From Desulfobacca acetoxidans (GTDB lineage Bacteria; Desulfobacterota; Desulfobaccia; Desulfobaccales; 0-14-0-80-60-11), in assembly GCA_020722205.1 (NCBI GenBank), contig DYLF01000020.1, positions 1-34,655 on the forward strand: DNA of 34,655 bases. The letters are read 5' to 3'. This document shows, in pieces, positions 10,379 through 18,923 of the stretch. Within the stretch, counting starts at the first letter, position 1. The number at the start of each line of letters is the position of its first letter. The position numbers and the translations under genes were made by a program. Below the pieces are notes generated by a model that was given only the letters and a program-made list of their open reading frames with translations, was not told the DNA's origin and did not search any database.

Positions 10379-11707
10379 ATGAATTGTCAGAACATTGATG
10401 ATGTTTTTAAGGCAGTGAAAGACTTGAATGTCAGTTTTATCCAACTGTGGTTCACCGACGTCTTGGGAATGTTGAAGAGCTTCTCCATTCGGCCGTCGGA
10501 GCTGGAAGAAGCTATGACGGAAGGCATGGGTTTTGACGGCTCCTCTATCGAGGGCTTTGCCCGCATCGAGGAGAGCGACATGATAGCCAAGCCCGATCCA
10601 TCCTCTTTCCAGCTGTTGCCCTGGCGCCCGGAAGAACAGCCGGTGGCCCGCATGTTTTGCGATATCTTGCAGCCGGACGGCTCTCCTTATCTCGGGGATC
10701 CGCGCTATATCCTGAAGCGCATATTGGCCAAGGCGGCGGAAAAGGGCTTCACTTATTATCTGGGTCCTGAGCTGGAGTTCTTTTATTTTGCCAACAACAA
10801 GACTCCCGAAGTCCTTGATAAGGGAGGGTATTTCGACGCCCCGCCGCTGGATGTGGGCAACGAACTGCGCCGCCAGACTATCTTTGCTTTGGAAAAGCAG
10901 GGCATTCGCATCGAATACAGCCACCACGAAGTGGCCGACTCCCAGCATGAAATAGATATGCGTTATGACGAGGGCTTGAAGATGGCCGACAAGTGCATGA
11001 CCATGCGGGTGACGGTGAAGGTGGTGGCCATGATGAACGGCGTTTATGCCACCTTCATGCCCAAGCCCATCTTCGGCATCAACGGCAGTGGCATGCACAC
11101 CCACCAGTCCCTGTTTAAAGACGGCAAGAACGCTTTTTATGACCCCAAAGACAGCTATCACCTCTCCGCCACCGGCAAGAGCTACATTGCCGGTCTCCTG
11201 CGGCACGCCCGGGAAATCACTGCCATTTGCAGCCAGTGGGTCAACTCTTACAAGCGGTTGGTGCCCGGCTATGAGGCGCCGGTCTATATCTCCTGGGCTC
11301 GGCGCAACCGCTCCGCCTTGGTGCGGGTGCCCATGTATAAGCCCGGCAAAGAGGTGGCGACCCGTTGCGAATACCGGGCCCCTGACCCGGCCTGCAACCC
11401 CTATCTGGCCTTTGCGGTCATGCTGGCGGCCGGCCTCAAAGGTGTGGAAAACAATTACCCCCTCCCGGAGCCGGTGGAGGAAGATATCTATCATATGTCC
11501 GAATCTGAGCGGGCGCGTCTGGGCATCCACTCCCTGCCCGGCAGTCTGCATGAGGCCGTCGAGGAGACCGCCAAGAGTAGCGTGGTGCGGGAAACCCTGG
11601 GAGAACACATTTTTACCAAATTCATTGACAACAAGCGCATCGAGTGGGACCGTTACCGCATGCAGGTCAGCAATTACGAGATCGAGCGCTATCTGCCGAT
11701 CCTTTAA
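10379..11707 (+). CDS. glnA: glutamine synthetase, type I (alpha subgroup)
   Basis: This 442-residue glutamine synthetase condenses glutamate, ammonia and ATP. Visible motifs are GFDGSSIEGF (N-terminal beta-grasp region), the Glu metal ligands in LGPELEFF, HHEVADSQHEID, the ATP-site NGSGMHTHQSLF, the glutamate loop LVPGYEAPVY and EYRAPDPACNPYLA. The length and the absence of the NLYDLPPEE-type adenylylation loop (here IYHMSESERARLG) place it in the GSI-alpha class, which is usually feedback-regulated and not adenylylated. Shine-Dalgarno AGGAG (10368-10372) gives 6-base spacing. It is preceded by a sigma-54-type promoter and followed by terminator-like hairpins, so it is probably transcribed alone. 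The glutamate synthase genes downstream form its metabolic partner. Confidence 0.96.
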   Translation: MNCQNIDDVFKAVKDLNVSFIQLWFTDVLGMLKSFSIRPSELEEAMTEGMGFDGSSIEGFARIEESDMIAKPDPSSFQLLPWRPEEQPVARMFCDILQPDGSPYLGDPRYILKRILAKAAEKGFTYYLGPELEFFYFANNKTPEVLDKGGYFDAPPLDVGNELRRQTIFALEKQGIRIEYSHHEVADSQHEIDMRYDEGLKMADKCMTMRVTVKVVAMMNGVYATFMPKPIFGINGSGMHTHQSLFKDGKNAFYDPKDSYHLSATGKSYIAGLLRHAREITAICSQWVNSYKRLVPGYEAPVYISWARRNRSALVRVPMYKPGKEVATRCEYRAPDPACNPYLAFAVMLAAGLKGVENNYPLPEPVEEDIYHMSESERARLGIHSLPGSLHEAVEETAKSSVVRETLGEHIFTKFIDNKRIEWDRYRMQVSNYEIERYLPIL

Positions 11708-11939: not shown

Positions 11940-12365
11940 ATGGAGACGTTAATCAAAGTGGTGTTGTTGGCTTGTGAGCAGGCCTGTCCGCGGCCGCAGT
12001 TATGGATAAAGCCGTTGGCCGAAGCGGGCCTGAAGGTTCGGATGGTGCAGGAGCCATGCAGCAGTAAGGTGGAAGTATTCCAGCTTCTGCGCCTGCTGGC
12101 GAGAAGCGCTGACTTGGTCTGGGTAGTGGCCTGCCCGGAGGAGCTTTGCCGCCTTTGCGAGGGGAGCATCCGTATGGAGCGGCGGCTGGCCCATGCCCAG
12201 GATTATCTGGAAGAGATCGGCCTGGAGCGGGAGCGGTTGGGTTTGTCTCTCCTGGCCGCCGAAGATGAAGCGGGACGGGGGAAGGTGATCGACACCATCC
12301 GGGCTCAAGCCCAGTCTTTGGGCATCAATCCTGGCTGCCGCCAACCTTCGGCGGGGAAGGAGTAA
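11940..12365 (+). CDS. MvhD-like iron-sulfur protein (hydrogenase delta subunit family)
   Basis: This 141-residue protein matches the MvhD/HdrA-associated delta-subunit family, small [2Fe-2S] proteins that hand electrons from a hydrogenase or dehydrogenase to an Hdr-type flavoprotein. Cysteines at 12, 16, 40, 65, 70 and 73 follow the family layout: a Cys pair at the N-terminus, one Cys in VQEPCSS, and a C-x4-C in VVACPEELC. The family helix beginning MERRLAHAQDYLEEIG comes next. It lies 2 bases before the MetV-like gene with a shared Shine-Dalgarno, so the two are co-translated. No Hdr or hydrogenase subunit is encoded nearby; glutamate synthase parts are. ATG 11940 has no obvious ribosome binding site. 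Confidence 0.75.
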   Translation: METLIKVVLLACEQACPRPQLWIKPLAEAGLKVRMVQEPCSSKVEVFQLLRLLARSADLVWVVACPEELCRLCEGSIRMERRLAHAQDYLEEIGLERERLGLSLLAAEDEAGRGKVIDTIRAQAQSLGINPGCRQPSAGKE

Positions 12366-12367
12366 CT

Positions 12368-13054
12368 GTGATTGTTGGCACTAGAAAACCCTTAGTTGAA
12401 ATCCTGGAGATGGTGAAACCTTACCACCGTCTGCTGTTGGTGGGCTGTGATACCTGTGTGGCTGAGTCGGCAAGCGGCGGCCGCCGGGAAACTTCGGAGT
12501 TGGCTGCCGCCCTAGAGATGGCCTTTCGCGTGGCCGGGACGGACAAAGACATCCGCGAAACCTGCGTGGACCGACAGTGTATTCACGAATTCTTGCTGGC
12601 AGTGGTGGAAGCTGCGGCAGAAGCGGATGCCGTCCTGTCTCTGGCCTGCGGGGCCGGAGTGCAAGCTTTGGCCGCCCGTTTGCCTAAGACTCCGGTGTTT
12701 CCGGCCCTCAACACCCAATTCATCGGGGAGACCGCCGAACGTGGTCTGTGGTTGGAAAACTGCCGGGGATGCGGCAATTGTCTGTTGGGTCTCACCGGTG
12801 GCATCTGCCCGATCACCAGGTGCGCCAAAGGCCTTCTTAACGGCCCCTGTGGCGGAGCTCGCGACGGCTGGTGTGAAATCAACCTGGCCAGGGAGATTAC
12901 CCCACCGGTAACCTGTGCCTGGTTGGAGATTTACGACCGCCTCCATTCCCTGGGGCAGTTGAATCGGCTCCTGGAGCCGCTGCCTCCCAAGGACTGGTCC
13001 CAAGGGGACGCAGGTGGGCCGAGGCGGGTATTGCGCCCTGACCAACGACCCTGA
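12368..13054 (+). CDS. MetV-like protein (methylenetetrahydrofolate reductase C-terminal-type domain)
   Basis: This 228-residue protein resembles MetV, the iron-sulfur partner of MetF in acetogens. It is rich in cysteine: Cys27, 30, 66, 71 and 94 in the N-terminal half, then CRGCGNC (132-138), ICPITRCAKGLLNGPCGG (146-163) and Cys169. The block ending LLNGPCGG is the hallmark of the MTHFR C-terminal domain family (PF12225). The GTG start at 12368 is preceded by AAGGAG with 5-base spacing. There is no metF in the window. Gene order mvhD-metV is seen in MetFV-HdrABC-MvhD clusters, but here the pair precedes glutamate synthase genes. A role as an electron-transfer adaptor is inferred; folate reduction is unlikely without MetF. 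Confidence 0.75.
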   Translation: MIVGTRKPLVEILEMVKPYHRLLLVGCDTCVAESASGGRRETSELAAALEMAFRVAGTDKDIRETCVDRQCIHEFLLAVVEAAAEADAVLSLACGAGVQALAARLPKTPVFPALNTQFIGETAERGLWLENCRGCGNCLLGLTGGICPITRCAKGLLNGPCGGARDGWCEINLAREITPPVTCAWLEIYDRLHSLGQLNRLLEPLPPKDWSQGDAGGPRRVLRPDQRP

Positions 13055-13277: not shown

Positions 13278-14693
13278 ATGCCGGCAAAATATCACATTCA
13301 TGTCAAGCCGGTGCCGCCGCGGTTTACGACCCCAGGCAAGAGCACCATACTGGATTGGGGGGAGGGGTGTCTTCGCTGCACCACTTGCGTGAAGCAGAGC
13401 TGCCCTTATTTGGCCTTTAAACAGCGTTCTTTTGATGACATAAGCCTTACCGACACCATTGATGCTTTTTGCAAGAACTGCTACCGTTGCGTTCAGGGCT
13501 GTCCGCGGGAACTGGTGGTGAAAACCGCCAATCCTCAGTATGCTCATTTAGGCGACCAATACTGGACTCCGGAGGTCATTCAGGTCACCTGGTATCAAGC
13601 CGAAACAGGCAAGATTCCAGTATCCGGGGCCGGCTATGGCGGAGCCTTTGCCGGTAAAGGCTTTGACGGCATCTGGACCGACATGTCGGAGATCGTCCGC
13701 CCCACGCGGGACGGCATCCATGGCCGGGAATACATCAGCACCGTCATCGATTTAGGACGCAAGCCCTTATTTCTCCTCTTTGATGAAAACCGGAACCTGG
13801 TCTTTACTCCTCCACACCGGTTGGAGATTCCACTGCCGATAATTCTGGCGGAGCCCTCCCTAGGTGCGGGACCGAGGCCGGTGCGCCAGGCAGTGGTATC
13901 TGCGGCCCAACGCCTTGGCACTCTGGCCCTTCTTCCCCGGCCTCATATCAGCGCCGACCTGAAGAAGTTTGCGCCGGTGATGGTCCCGTCCTATACCGCT
14001 GACACTTTGACCTTGGAAGACCCTCTGCTCCCCAGAGTGCGCTTACTGGAGCTGCTGGATCACCCCAAAGTCCTGGAGCAGGTGGAGGAGGTGAAAAAAC
14101 GTTACCCCCGAATAATCATCTCCGTCAAGGTCCCGGCTAACGGGAAAGTGGTGAATCGGGTTAAAGAGCTCACCGAGGCTGGGGCTGAGGTCATTCACCT
14201 GGCTGCCTCAGATGAGGCCCAGGGTCTGGCGGACGCCGCCCACCTCCATCTCAAAGACCTCTTGCGGCAGTGCCACCAACGTCTGGTGGAGTTTCACCTA
14301 AGGGACACCGTCACTCTGCTGGTGAGCGGTGGCATCGCCTTAGCGGAGCATATCCCCAAGGCCATTATATGCGGTGCCGATGGGGTTATTGTTGACCTAC
14401 CTCTGCTCATTGCCCTGGAATGCCGTCTCTGCCGCAATTGTGTGTATGGAGAGTCCTGCCCGGTAGAGATGGAGCACCTCAACGTCAAGCGGGGGAGCCA
14501 ACGGCTGGTTAATCTTTTGGGGGCCTGGAACAACCAGCTCCTGGAGGTATTAGGTGCAATGGGCTTGCGGGAGGTCCGCCGTCTGCGAGGGGAAGTGGGT
14601 CGGGCCATGTTCGTCGAAGATCTGGAACGGGAAATTTTTGCCCCACTGTTTGCCCGCCCTGAAGGCGAGGCTTTGAAACGTGAACCAACCTGA
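13278..14693 (+). CDS. Divergent glutamate-synthase-like ferredoxin/FMN-domain protein
   Basis: This 471-residue protein has two N-terminal [4Fe-4S] motifs (Cys31, 34, 37, 42 and Cys65, 68, 71, 75, each closed by Pro). A TIM-barrel domain related to the central FMN domain of glutamate synthase follows. Near the C-terminus VSGGIALAEHIPKAIICGADG and CRLCRNCVYGESC (C-x2-C-x2-C-x5-C) mirror the FMN phosphate-binding loop and the Fe-S cysteines of GltB. The substrate and flavin loops found in its downstream paralogue (SAGMSFGSIS, GSYGGTGAAP) are not recognisable. It is best read as a divergent paralogue, possibly an electron-transfer or structural partner of the canonical subunit. Start ATG 13278 gives the expected N-terminus. 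It precedes the paralogue by 25 bases. Confidence 0.75.
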   Translation: MPAKYHIHVKPVPPRFTTPGKSTILDWGEGCLRCTTCVKQSCPYLAFKQRSFDDISLTDTIDAFCKNCYRCVQGCPRELVVKTANPQYAHLGDQYWTPEVIQVTWYQAETGKIPVSGAGYGGAFAGKGFDGIWTDMSEIVRPTRDGIHGREYISTVIDLGRKPLFLLFDENRNLVFTPPHRLEIPLPIILAEPSLGAGPRPVRQAVVSAAQRLGTLALLPRPHISADLKKFAPVMVPSYTADTLTLEDPLLPRVRLLELLDHPKVLEQVEEVKKRYPRIIISVKVPANGKVVNRVKELTEAGAEVIHLAASDEAQGLADAAHLHLKDLLRQCHQRLVEFHLRDTVTLLVSGGIALAEHIPKAIICGADGVIVDLPLLIALECRLCRNCVYGESCPVEMEHLNVKRGSQRLVNLLGAWNNQLLEVLGAMGLREVRRLRGEVGRAMFVEDLEREIFAPLFARPEGEALKREPT

Positions 14694-14718
14694 GATTTGA
14701 AACTGTAAACTAGAAGAT

Positions 14719-16272
14719 ATGAAACATCTTAGAAATCTTGCAGAAAAGGCCGAAGAAGCCCTTGGGCTGGGCTGGACCCCGGTGCGCACGCCTTGTCGCT
14801 TTCGCAATCCATTGTCCAAGTACCGAGTGTGGCGCAACGAAGCCAAATGCATCCAGTGTGGCAAGTGCGTGGAGGTGTGCCCCTATGGGGTGCATAGCAA
14901 AGTGGGCAAGTTCATCAAGCGCCCCAAGAGCTATTTATGTCTGGGGCCAGCCTGCGAAAAGAATTCCTTTTATTGTGTAGCGAACTGCCCCACCGGGGCT
15001 TTGCGCCTCCGTCTCAACCCGGTTTATCATACTCTGGGGGACAGCCGCTGGACCGCCGATCTCCTCTTAGCCACTTGGTGGATGGCGGAGTTCGGCACCT
15101 TGCCTTACATGGATTTAGAATACCGCATCGGTGCCTCCGGGGGTGGATTTGACAAGCTGCGCTTTATTTTTCCGCCCCAGATCCCGGACTCCAAACTCAG
15201 CCATGAAGACATTTCTCTTGAGCTCTCCCTCAACCAGAGAAACGACGGCCGCCCGCAGCTTACCTTGTCCGTCCCCTGGTACAGCGCCGGTATGTCATTC
15301 GGCTCCATCAGCCTGAACGCGATGCTTTCCCGGCTAAAATCGGCGGTCACTTATAACACTCTGATGAGTACTGGTGAGGGAGGCTATCCGGAGATTCTTT
15401 ACCCTTATGACCACTATGTAGTCACCCAGGTGGCCACCGGCCTTTTCGGTGTCCGGGAGGACACCATCCAGCGGGTGCGTATGGTCGAGTTCAAGTACGC
15501 CCAAGGGGCCAAGCCAGGCTTGGGTGGCCACCTATTAGGGGACAAGGTTACCGAAGCCGTGGCCCACATGCGGGAGTCGGTGCCCGGCATGGCCCTGTTT
15601 TCCCCCTTCCCCTTCCACAGCGTCTATTCCGTGGAAGACCACAAGAAACACCTGGATTGGATCAAGGAAGTCAACCCCCGGGCTTTGGTATCGGTGAAGG
15701 TCTCCACCCCCACGGATGTGGACATGGTGGCAGTGGGGAGCTTCTACGCCGGAGCCCACGTAGTGCAACTGGATGGCAGCTACGGCGGCACCGGGGCCGC
15801 ACCCGACATCGCCAAAAAGAACATTGCCATGCCCATTGAATACGCCATCCCCAAGGTACACCAGTTCCTCCTCCATGAAGGCATTCGGAGGCAGATTACC
15901 CTGATTGCTTCAGGGGGCATTCGCACAGCCTTTGATGTGGCCAAGGCCATTGCCCTGGGGGCCGACGGCGTTCAGATCGGCACCGCCGAATTGGTGGCTT
16001 TGGAGTGCCTGCGTTGCCACCAGTGCGAAAGCGGCCGGGGTTGCGTACGGGGCATCGCCACCACTGACCCTGAGCTCACTGACATGATGACCGTAGACTG
16101 GGGCGCCAATCGGGTCCGCAACATGTACCACGCCTGGGTCTGGCAGCTTAAAGAGATCCTGCGCCGTCTGGGCTTGCGCAGCATCCGGGAACTGGTGGGT
16201 CGCACCGATGTCTTGGTGCACCTGGATTATTATAAGTTGCCGGTGGATGATGACCTACGGCGGAGTGGCTAG
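14719..16272 (+). CDS. gltB2: Glutamate synthase central (FMN) domain protein with two [4Fe-4S] motifs, archaeal type
   Basis: This 517-residue protein is the stand-alone glutamate synthase (synthase) module seen in archaea and some anaerobes. Ferredoxin-like cysteines occur at 44, 47, 50, 54 and 74, 79, 86, 90. The FMN domain carries SAGMSFGSIS, STGEGGYPE, QLDGSYGGTGAAP, ASGGIRTAFDVAKA and GADGVQIGT. The [3Fe-4S]-type cysteine motif is ECLRCHQCESGRGC, near residues 430-446. It would reductively aminate 2-oxoglutarate using ammonia from the glutaminase encoded next door. Neighbours on both sides are other glutamate synthase parts, 20-25 bases apart. No GltD-like NAD(P)H subunit is present, so electrons probably enter through the ferredoxin domain. 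Confidence 0.9.
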   Translation: MKHLRNLAEKAEEALGLGWTPVRTPCRFRNPLSKYRVWRNEAKCIQCGKCVEVCPYGVHSKVGKFIKRPKSYLCLGPACEKNSFYCVANCPTGALRLRLNPVYHTLGDSRWTADLLLATWWMAEFGTLPYMDLEYRIGASGGGFDKLRFIFPPQIPDSKLSHEDISLELSLNQRNDGRPQLTLSVPWYSAGMSFGSISLNAMLSRLKSAVTYNTLMSTGEGGYPEILYPYDHYVVTQVATGLFGVREDTIQRVRMVEFKYAQGAKPGLGGHLLGDKVTEAVAHMRESVPGMALFSPFPFHSVYSVEDHKKHLDWIKEVNPRALVSVKVSTPTDVDMVAVGSFYAGAHVVQLDGSYGGTGAAPDIAKKNIAMPIEYAIPKVHQFLLHEGIRRQITLIASGGIRTAFDVAKAIALGADGVQIGTAELVALECLRCHQCESGRGCVRGIATTDPELTDMMTVDWGANRVRNMYHAWVWQLKEILRRLGLRSIRELVGRTDVLVHLDYYKLPVDDDLRRSG

Positions 16273-16292: not shown

Positions 16293-18923
16293 ATGCAGGG
16301 CAAGAAAAAATTAGACTACCAGAACCTGCGGCTATTAAAAACCCGGCGTGATTTGCCTGCGCCGACTTATCCAGGTCTTCCTGTAAAGGCCGATGAAGAA
16401 GGCGGCTGCGGGGTCACCGGCTTTGCCGCCAGCGTGCCGGTGACCGGACGGCACATTTTTGCGCCTTCCATCCAGATGCACAACCGAGGCAACGGCAAAG
16501 GCGGCGGCATCGCCGCGGTGGGCTTGGACCCCGACACCCTGGGGGTCTCGCAAGAAATTCTGGATGAGGACTACCTCCTGCAGATCGCTTTTCTGGACGA
16601 AGAGGTGCGCCCGGCGGTGGAGGCCCAATTCATCACCCCCAATTTCCGGGTGGACCACGTCCAACGCTTGCCCCGCATGGACGACTGGCGAGAATTGCCG
16701 GGTCTGGTTGTTCAGCCTCCGGAGGTGTGGCGCTATTTTGTCCGGGTCAAGCCCGAAGTCCTGCAATACTTTATCCAAAACAACAGACTCTATGAAATAG
16801 CATGGCGCAAGGTGGAAGATGAGTTTGTGGCCCAGAACTGCTACCGGTTAAACCAGGCTTTCTACGCCTCCTTAGGTGAAAAGAAGGCCTTTGTCCTATC
16901 TTTCGGACGCAATCTGATAATCCTCAAGATAGTGGGGTATGCCGAAGAGGCCGCGCTCTATTACCAGCTTCTGGACTTCAAGGCTCACGTCTGGATCGCC
17001 CACCAACGCTATCCCACTCGGGGGCGGGTATGGCATCCCGGTGGAGCGCACCCTTTCGCCGCCATGAACGTGGCTTTGGTGCATAACGGCGACTTCGCCA
17101 ATTACTATGCGGTGGCCGAGTATTTGAGCCAGCGCCACTTCTATCCCCAGTTCCTCACGGACACAGAGGTGGCAGTGCTGTTGTTCGACCTCTGGCACCG
17201 CTGCTACGGCTATCCCCTCGAATATGTCATTGAGGCCCTGGCCCCGACCACGGAACGAGATTTTGATCTCTTACCAGTGGATAAGCAAAGGATATACCGG
17301 CAGATTCAGGCCGCCAACATTCATGGCTCCCCGGACGGCCCCTGGTTCTTCATCATCGCCCGCAACGAGCCGGAGCAGCAGCGCTTTGAGCTCATCGGCA
17401 TCACTGACACCAGTATGTTGCGGCCCCAGGTCTTTGCCTTGTCCGATGGCGAGGTGCAGATCGGGTTGGTATGTTCGGAGAAGCAGGCCATTGACGCCAC
17501 GCTGGCCTCCCTGGCCGCTGAGGATCCCCGTTTTTGCCCGGTGGCCGACCTCTACTGGAATGCCCGGGGCGGCAGCCATACCGACGGGGGGGCTTTTATC
17601 TTTGCGTTGGAAGAACAAAATGGCCGCCGCCTTACCTGCACGGACAAGTTCGGGAGATGCAAGACCGTGCCCTGGTATCAGAAACCCTGGGAAGGAACAG
17701 TGCTGGAGTTGACCGCTGAGAGGTGGGGCGAGCTGGGGGCGATGATTAAGGGGCTTCTTCAGGATAGCACCGGGTGTAGTTTTTACGACTGGGTCGTGAA
17801 AAACCTGGTCAAGTGGCCCTATTCCCGTTTTCATGAAGCATTGCAGGTGGTGACCCGGCTATCCCGGGAGGCCGATGAACTGAAAGCCGGGGCTATTGCC
17901 GCTCTCACTTTGCTGTTGGATTGGCACTATGACCCGGTGGACAAAAAACGCAGCCATCTTATTCGCTTGATCCTGGAGGCTCTGGAGGAGATCTGCGATC
18001 AAACCCCAATCATCGGCGCCGATCATCCCAGCCGTTACCGTCTGGTGACTTGGGAGACCAGGGGAACTCTCACCGGTGCTCATCACCCGGAAGGGGTGCT
18101 GATTCTGAAGGCCACGGATTTCCCCCCGGAGGGTGAGGACTGCGATGCGCGGTTTCTCTGCCGGGCCTATGAACTGGGCTGGAAACGGTTCCTCTGTTAT
18201 GGCTATCGCGGGCAACGTTTCCTGGGCTGCGGCTTCGGCCCGGCGAGCGACGGGGTCCGCATCGACGCCTATGGCAGTACTGGGGATTATCTGGCCTCCG
18301 GCCTGGACGGCCTGGAGATCTACGTCCACGGCAACGGCCAAGACCAGCTGGGCCAGATCATGAAGCGGGGGAAGCTGGTGGTTTACGGCGATGTGGGCCA
18401 GACCTTCATGTACGGCGCCAAGGGCGGGGAGGTATATATCATGGGCAACGCTGCCGGGCGCCCCCTGATCAACGCCGTGGGCTGTCCCCGGGTGGTCATC
18501 AACGGCACGGCCTTGGACTTCCTGGCGGAATCCTTCATGGCCGGCGACCCCTTAAAAGGCGGCGGCTTTGTCATCGTCAACGGATTGGAGTTCGACGAGC
18601 GGGGGCGGGTCAGACCCCAGGCCACCCCTTACCCAGGCTCTAACCTCTTCTCGCTGGCTTCCGGCGGGGCCCTCTATATTCGGGACCCCTATAACCAAGT
18701 GGTAGCTGAACAACTGAACGGCGGTGAATTGGTGCCGTTAAGCGCAGCCGACTGGCAGCTTATTCTGCCCTATCTGAAGGAAAACGAGCGTCTATTTAAC
18801 ATTTCGCTAGAGAAAGACCTGCTCACTGTGGACGGGGAGCGCCACCCCCCAGAGCAGGTCTATCGCAAGGTGCAGGCCGTAAAGCTGGCGGTGTTGACGA
18901 AGGTGTCCGACGATTGGGATTGA
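16293..18923 (+). CDS. Fused glutaminase (class II GATase) and GXGXG domains of glutamate synthase
   Basis: This 876-residue protein joins the glutaminase domain (GltB1) and the GXGXG beta-helix domain (GltB3) but lacks the synthase domain, which is encoded upstream. The nucleophile is Cys39 in GGCGVTGF. Other GATase II marks are MHNRGNGKGGG, the HQRYPTRG loop and LVHNGDFANY. The repeat domain lies at about 640-800 (GDYLASGLDG, GNGQDQLG, GNAAGRPL). The 38 residues before Cys39 match the size of the propeptide removed from classic GltB, suggesting maturation to an N-terminal Cys. An unrecognised helical segment of roughly 200 residues separates the two domains. It liberates ammonia from glutamine for the synthase. 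Start ATG 16293 is 20 bases after gltB2. Confidence 0.88.
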   Translation: MQGKKKLDYQNLRLLKTRRDLPAPTYPGLPVKADEEGGCGVTGFAASVPVTGRHIFAPSIQMHNRGNGKGGGIAAVGLDPDTLGVSQEILDEDYLLQIAFLDEEVRPAVEAQFITPNFRVDHVQRLPRMDDWRELPGLVVQPPEVWRYFVRVKPEVLQYFIQNNRLYEIAWRKVEDEFVAQNCYRLNQAFYASLGEKKAFVLSFGRNLIILKIVGYAEEAALYYQLLDFKAHVWIAHQRYPTRGRVWHPGGAHPFAAMNVALVHNGDFANYYAVAEYLSQRHFYPQFLTDTEVAVLLFDLWHRCYGYPLEYVIEALAPTTERDFDLLPVDKQRIYRQIQAANIHGSPDGPWFFIIARNEPEQQRFELIGITDTSMLRPQVFALSDGEVQIGLVCSEKQAIDATLASLAAEDPRFCPVADLYWNARGGSHTDGGAFIFALEEQNGRRLTCTDKFGRCKTVPWYQKPWEGTVLELTAERWGELGAMIKGLLQDSTGCSFYDWVVKNLVKWPYSRFHEALQVVTRLSREADELKAGAIAALTLLLDWHYDPVDKKRSHLIRLILEALEEICDQTPIIGADHPSRYRLVTWETRGTLTGAHHPEGVLILKATDFPPEGEDCDARFLCRAYELGWKRFLCYGYRGQRFLGCGFGPASDGVRIDAYGSTGDYLASGLDGLEIYVHGNGQDQLGQIMKRGKLVVYGDVGQTFMYGAKGGEVYIMGNAAGRPLINAVGCPRVVINGTALDFLAESFMAGDPLKGGGFVIVNGLEFDERGRVRPQATPYPGSNLFSLASGGALYIRDPYNQVVAEQLNGGELVPLSAADWQLILPYLKENERLFNISLEKDLLTVDGERHPPEQVYRKVQAVKLAVLTKVSDDWD

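Follow-up and report, generated by a model that had tools for sequence, protein, structure and literature searches.

Glutamate synthase occupies a central place in nitrogen assimilation. A locus of Desulfobacca acetoxidans raises the question of what a glutamate-synthase-like protein with a seemingly empty active site contributes beside an intact FMN subunit. The window, by which we mean the whole 34,655-nucleotide stretch of DNA that was analyzed, is a contig of a 2.6-Mb genome of 99.97% completeness, and all features described here lie on its + strand. Among named organisms, those nearest to it are Desulfobacca-like bacteria and further "Deltaproteobacteria" MAGs. ORF1 (13278..14693; 471 aa) and ORF2 (14719..16272; 517 aa) stand in tandem with both frames intact and are followed by ORF3 (16293..18923; 876 aa). 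Upstream of ORF1 are genes for a type I glutamine synthetase (glnA; 10379..11707), which would supply glutamine, for an MvhD/FlpD-like small electron-transfer protein (11940..12365), and for a MetV-like protein (DUF5981; 12368..13054) with no adjacent MetF. In many relatives, MvhD, MetV, and MetF genes precede ORF1 (e.g., L083:4933-5916), and the sole match to PF02219 (MetF) in the genome of the window is on contig C169.

An intact FMN subunit and its paralogue without FMN loops

The sequence-only reading of this locus had described two paralogous Fe-S/FMN glutamate synthase proteins in tandem, and our comparisons agree. ORF1 and ORF2 are homologous end to end, aligning from the first Fe-S motif through the C terminus at 26% identity (BLASTP E=4e-33), and a profile-profile comparison matched them over 410 columns (E=9e-69). 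By these alignments, ORF1 and ORF2 are distant paralogues. Both proteins also contain the cluster motifs that had been noted in them, with eight N-terminal cysteines each (2x[4Fe-4S] motifs, C31-C75, at 13368..13502 in ORF1; C44-C90 at 14848..14988 in ORF2) and a C-terminal C-x2-C-x2-C-x5-C motif (C382/385/388/394 at 14421..14459 in ORF1; C430/433/436/442 at 16006..16044 in ORF2, where it aligns with the Cys region of solved GltS). All 12 ORF1 cysteines are invariant in 56/56 homologues (set A3), with the Pfam dicluster models scoring slightly below their curated cut-offs on the ORF1 N terminus.

ORF2 matches Pfam Glu_synthase (PF01645) with 308 bits over profile positions 55-368 of 369 and has the full FMN and 2-oxoglutarate (2-OG) barrel loops and the Cys cluster of that family. 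Its alignment with glutamate synthases of solved structure runs through every FMN loop, including SAGMSFGS (15283..15306), TGEGGYPE (15370..15393), QGAKPG (15502..15519), and GSYGGTGAAP (15775..15804), and the motifs GEGG, QGAK, GGTGA, and GMSxGS are all present in 48/48 ORF2 homologues. As judged from its sequence, ORF2 is an intact FMN glutamate synthase subunit. In contrast, ORF1 matches PF01645 with 60 bits at profile positions 184-368 only; this score, like that of ORF2, is above the cut-off of 20.4 bits, but ORF1 lacks the FMN and 2-OG binding loops of the family, with approximately 46 residues containing QGAKPG and the next loop deleted relative to ORF2. The four motifs occur in 0/56 ORF1 homologues, confirming the earlier proposal that only the second protein keeps the FMN/2-iminoglutarate loops, and none of these homologues retains all FMN ligands, as that proposal requires.

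The ORF1 barrel (residues 181-372; 13818..14393) keeps two elements: SGGI, whose G351-G352 is invariant (56/56), and GAD(G), of which GAD is retained in most homologues. This retention would suit an ORF1 that binds flavin at the kept phosphate site, as a second, noncatalytic flavin for electron bifurcation or storage, but we consider such a role quite improbable. None of the loops on the isoalloxazine side remains (0/56), and where ORF2 has a glycine behind the last barrel strand (G421), ORF1 has an invariant Asp373, which is expected to repel the phosphate.

ORF3 combines GATase_6 and GXGXG domains above the Pfam cut-off in a single chain, and a Pfam search found no central domain in it; the locus as a whole encodes a class II glutaminase and a GXGXG beta-helix with the FMN subunit. 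ORF3 begins with 38 residues followed by a conserved GGCGVTGF (16293-16409), and CG[VIA]xG is present in 61/63 ORF3s. Unlike a Met-Cys start, this N terminus resembles the canonical GltB propeptide, and we infer by analogy that propeptide removal exposes Cys39 (16407..16409) as a candidate N-terminal nucleophile. The canonical glutamate synthase central domain was found neither in the source genome nor in the searched genomes of its family and order, and because of its absence from the genome, the ORF1-ORF2-ORF3 operon appears to supply the glutamate synthase of this organism. Neither the three core genes nor those immediately 5' of them encode the GltD beta subunit expected of an NADPH-GltS operon; the one GltD-like gene that scores above the family cut-off lies on a different contig of the genome, C151. 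Glu_synthase also matches part of a third protein (41 bits; G000 contig C37:6971-7366, locus L003), which does not have the complete set of ORF2-type loops and to which we assign no role.

Conservation of ORF1 and its pairing with ORF2

Conservation in the ORF1 family is highest at residues 114-155, not in a cluster motif. These residues lie in a conserved pre-barrel loop, G111-T155 (GKIPVSGAGYGG...FDGIWTDMSEIVRPTRDGIHGREYIST; 13608..13742), and the most conserved stretch, new relative to ORF2, reads GKIPVSGAGYGG...FDxMWTDMSEIVRPTRDGIHGREYI (loop consensus, GFDxMWTDMSEIVRPTRDGIHGREYI), with DMSEIVRPTRDGI present in 56/56 ORF1 homologues. The C-terminal GAMGLREVRRLRGEVGR (14553..14603) is near-invariant. 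Between close relatives, dN/dS was 0.07-0.24 for ORF1 and 0.04-0.19 for ORF2, and the loci contain 61 complete unfused ORF1 frames. ORF1 is kept under purifying selection; decay is rejected because dN/dS is low, the frames are intact, and the cysteines are invariant. These results uphold the earlier view of a duplicate that was retained rather than decaying, and relaxed selection, which would speak against that view, was not seen in these comparisons.

ORF1 is also tied to ORF2 across genomes. Among 148 genomes of the phylum, at thresholds of at least 560 bits for ORF1 and at least 850 bits for ORF2, ORF1 was found in 44 and ORF2 in 42, and 42/42 genomes with ORF2 also had ORF1 (Fisher p 6e-35); the two ORF1-only genomes look like truncations at contig edges. 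ORF2 is directly after, or fused to, ORF1 in 65/65 scorable loci, and 12 natural single-chain ORF1-ORF2 fusions were observed. By record title, the loci span Thermodesulfobacteriota, Nitrospirota, Chloroflexota, Latescibacterota, Poribacteria, and Planctomycetota. ORF1 is an obligate partner of ORF2, and the partner role that had been suggested for it is supported by this co-occurrence, by adjacency, and by the fusions. Not every such enzyme needs a separate partner, because archaeal-type enzymes, whose FMN subunit is found without ORF1 in approximately 30 genomes, work without it.

ORF1 evolves approximately twice as fast as ORF2, and MetV(F) genes are often upstream of it, as might be expected if ORF1 were a decaying duplicate or belonged to the neighboring MvhD-MetV(-MetF) system rather than to a glutamate synthase. 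We give this reading almost no probability considering the dN/dS values well below 1, the complete frames, and the co-occurrence and natural fusions with ORF2. A role in a MetVF system only was likewise rejected, with MetV missing from approximately one-quarter of ORF1 loci and ORF2 missing from none.

A sequence search found no solved structures of close ORF1 relatives. We also found no description of the subunit in the open-access literature, to which our search was mostly confined. ORF1 represents a widespread and apparently undescribed subunit family.

Predicted structure and relation to the canonical central domain

An AlphaFold2 model of ORF1 alone (pLDDT 84.9) contains an eight-strand barrel, and with the FMN loops gone, the ORF1 barrel is, in this prediction, complete but empty. 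The sequence-only reading was therefore correct about the missing loops but not in reducing the barrel to its last strands. In a PDB comparison of ORF1 alone, the best match was a glutamate synthase, but many FMN barrels scored similarly, making this search uninformative by itself. We modeled the ORF1-ORF2 pair as one natural 974-aa fusion in a single chain (pLDDT 84.9, pTM 0.87). In a Foldseek search of the PDB, the seven best matches to this model were all full-length solved GltS (E 1.6e-28 to 1.5e-24) over 917-964 columns with TMq of 0.51-0.54, compared to TMq of 0.20-0.25 for single FMN barrels. This result is best explained by both halves of the predicted fusion superposing together, with ORF1 covering the central domain and ORF2 the FMN domain; alignment length and TM-score are the basis for this placement of ORF1, for which they give strong though indirect evidence. 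In the predicted fusion, ORF1 thereby neighbors the FMN domain in the manner of solved GltS. The conserved loop is predicted to be disordered in ORF1 alone, and the mean pLDDT of residues 121-130 rises from 36 alone to 72 in the fusion model, with that of residues 141-150 staying low.

Archaeal-type FMN subunits (~500 aa, 2x4Fe-4S plus FMN barrel; L043, L044, and L177-L185) link this loop to the central domain. They have the domain order common to ORF1 and ORF2, with an Fe-S dicluster, pre-barrel, barrel, and C-terminal Cys motif, but carry a pre-barrel GMG...VTNPSIDPLRE and the FMN loops in one protein, features that are divided here between ORF1 and ORF2. In comparisons with their pre-barrel, ORF1 aligned over 72 columns (E 4e-12) and ORF2 over only the first 23 columns (E 4e-4), whereas their barrel matches ORF2 best (E 9e-75, versus 5e-33 for ORF1). 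These matches indicate that ORF1 kept the pre-barrel and ORF2 the FMN loops, a complementary retention of segments of an archaeal-type ancestor. The replacement of the ORF1 loops that had been noted earlier is therefore real, but residues 114-155 are related to the archaeal-type pre-barrel and are not unrelated sequence.

A match to the canonical central domain was likewise obtained with the archaeal-type pre-barrel (E 2e-17), and archaeal-type intermediates set the ORF1 loop in register with the region of Met479 and VTN507-508 (T507, N508) of A. brasilense. The loop is a probable, diverged counterpart of the archaeal-type and central-domain GMG...VTNPxIDPxRE (GSMG...VTNPxIDPxRE, ahead of a degenerate barrel, in the central domain); the Met479 position is Ala, Ser, or Gly in ORF1. 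Direct profile matches of ORF1 to the central domain were modest, at E 6e-8 for the whole protein, mostly in the barrel, and E 0.0018 for the pre-barrel alone, and no match to PF04898 (GltS central domain) in ORF1 was above the curated Pfam cut-off. Direct orthology between ORF1 and the canonical central domain is not supported, with the ORF1 barrel profile matching ORF2 at E 2.5e-56 and the central domain at only E 1.2e-7. The canonical central-domain barrel is truncated by three beta/alpha units (PMC5011417), and ORF1 has all eight strands in the predicted model. Given that ORF1 lies much nearer to ORF2, it and the central domain are best regarded as having arisen in parallel.

The canonical enzyme shows the same division of pre-barrel and FMN loops as ORF1 and ORF2. 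Its central domain matches archaeal-type subunits from pre-barrel to C terminus (E about 1e-22, 259 columns; L043-L048 and L177-L185 compared with L144-L169), and the pre-barrel of its FMN domain gave no match to them. A 2021 review states the origin of the central domain, by duplication or independently, as open (PMC8097209). Because archaeal-type subunits match the central domain along this whole length, our profile comparisons support an origin of the textbook central domain by duplication. This match is evidence on the origin of the central domain that is independent of ORF1. The sequence-only reading missed both the analogy with the degenerate central domain, which is closer than those it drew, and the complementary retention by ORF1 and ORF2.

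Proposed mechanism, electron entry, and ancestry

Together, the sequence comparisons and predicted models make it fairly likely that ORF1, ORF2, and ORF3 form one heteromeric glutamate synthase, with ORF1 as an inactive, pseudo-symmetric partner of ORF2 in the place of the central domain. ORF3 would hydrolyze glutamine and release ammonia, which would travel by a route to which ORF1 and ORF2 contribute; ORF2 would hold FMN and reduce 2-iminoglutarate. ORF1 would have originated as a duplicate of the FMN subunit, have been stripped of its active site, and now serve as a free-standing Fe-S counterpart of the canonical central domain, with its ammonia channel and FMN gate. Its pre-barrel loop may reach the FMN side of ORF2 to close or gate the site and to contribute to the ammonia path, and up to three ORF1 Fe-S clusters may serve for electron entry, with the MvhD-like protein as a possible source. 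We infer the loop-FMN contact, the channel lining, the gate, the electron path, and the absence of bound FMN in ORF1.

ORF1 could instead be mainly an electron relay from MvhD or ferredoxin to ORF2, with its barrel only a scaffold. The 12 invariant cysteines, the absence of a GltD-like gene from the core and immediately upstream genes, and an MvhD/FlpD-like gene 5' of ORF1 in 55/57 scorable loci, often within ~60 bases where MetVF is absent, are consistent with this and make the relay suggested in the sequence-only reading plausible as one function of ORF1. As its main function, we find it unlikely: the pre-barrel loop rather than a cluster motif is the most conserved part of ORF1, ORF2 carries a full set of cluster motifs of its own, and the C-terminal cysteines are lost in L037, a divergent ORF1 member outside the 56-sequence set, and in giant fused enzymes. 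The relay is compatible with the heteromeric enzyme proposed above, in which ORF1 is probably an electron inlet. The MvhD-like protein, its gene upstream in nearly all scorable loci, is the best candidate electron donor.

Canonical GltS alpha (GltB/Fd-GltS; 1ea0, 2vdc, 6s6x, 1ofd, and 7mfm) shares the glutaminase, FMN synthase, and GXGXG modules, and in it an inactive relative of the FMN barrel precedes the FMN barrel, in the same region as in the predicted fusion. Unlike canonical GltS, the inactive barrel here is a separate gene, is not truncated in the predicted model, and comes with Fe-S motifs of its own, two at the N terminus and one at the C terminus, and no GltD beta subunit is among the core genes. 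In the stronger reading of the sequences and models, what is new would be a glutamate synthase with the central-domain counterpart as a separate Fe-S subunit. An inactive barrel is seen here as a separate, obligately paired gene in a widespread family, allowing the "central domain" to be removed or mutated without breaking the catalytic chain, so that roles in ammonia channeling, gating, and electron entry become directly testable.

In an unrooted tree of 42 barrels, in which degenerate barrels may attract each other, ORF1 groups with the degenerate barrels of giant fused glutamate-synthase-like proteins (100/99) and ORF2 with their FMN barrels (96/87). Because both pairings are supported, the duplication appears older than the split of the two-gene and giant forms. 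A tentative extension, possible but doubtful in our judgment, is that glutamate synthases arose from an FMN subunit that formed a dimer, the FMN site of each copy being served by its partner's pre-barrel loop, and that complementary degeneration then gave the canonical, ORF1/ORF2, and giant forms separately. If so, the ORF1/ORF2 pair would correspond, with less decay, to the step from which the textbook central domain arose.

The giant proteins (~2530 aa in G053, G071, G106, and G163; 1924 aa in G034; loci L038, L039, and L174-L176) place an ORF1-related degenerate barrel directly before an ORF2-related FMN barrel. Unlike the ORF1-ORF2 system, they combine all parts in a single chain that also carries an FAD-linked oxidase at its N terminus, and their degenerate barrel is without the C-terminal Cys motif of ORF1. 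The L039 protein is annotated with an FAD-linked oxidase, Fe-S domains, a degenerate barrel, an FMN barrel, a glutaminase, and GXGXG. The glutaminase Cys is internal, so that as a class II amidotransferase it would need proteolytic maturation.
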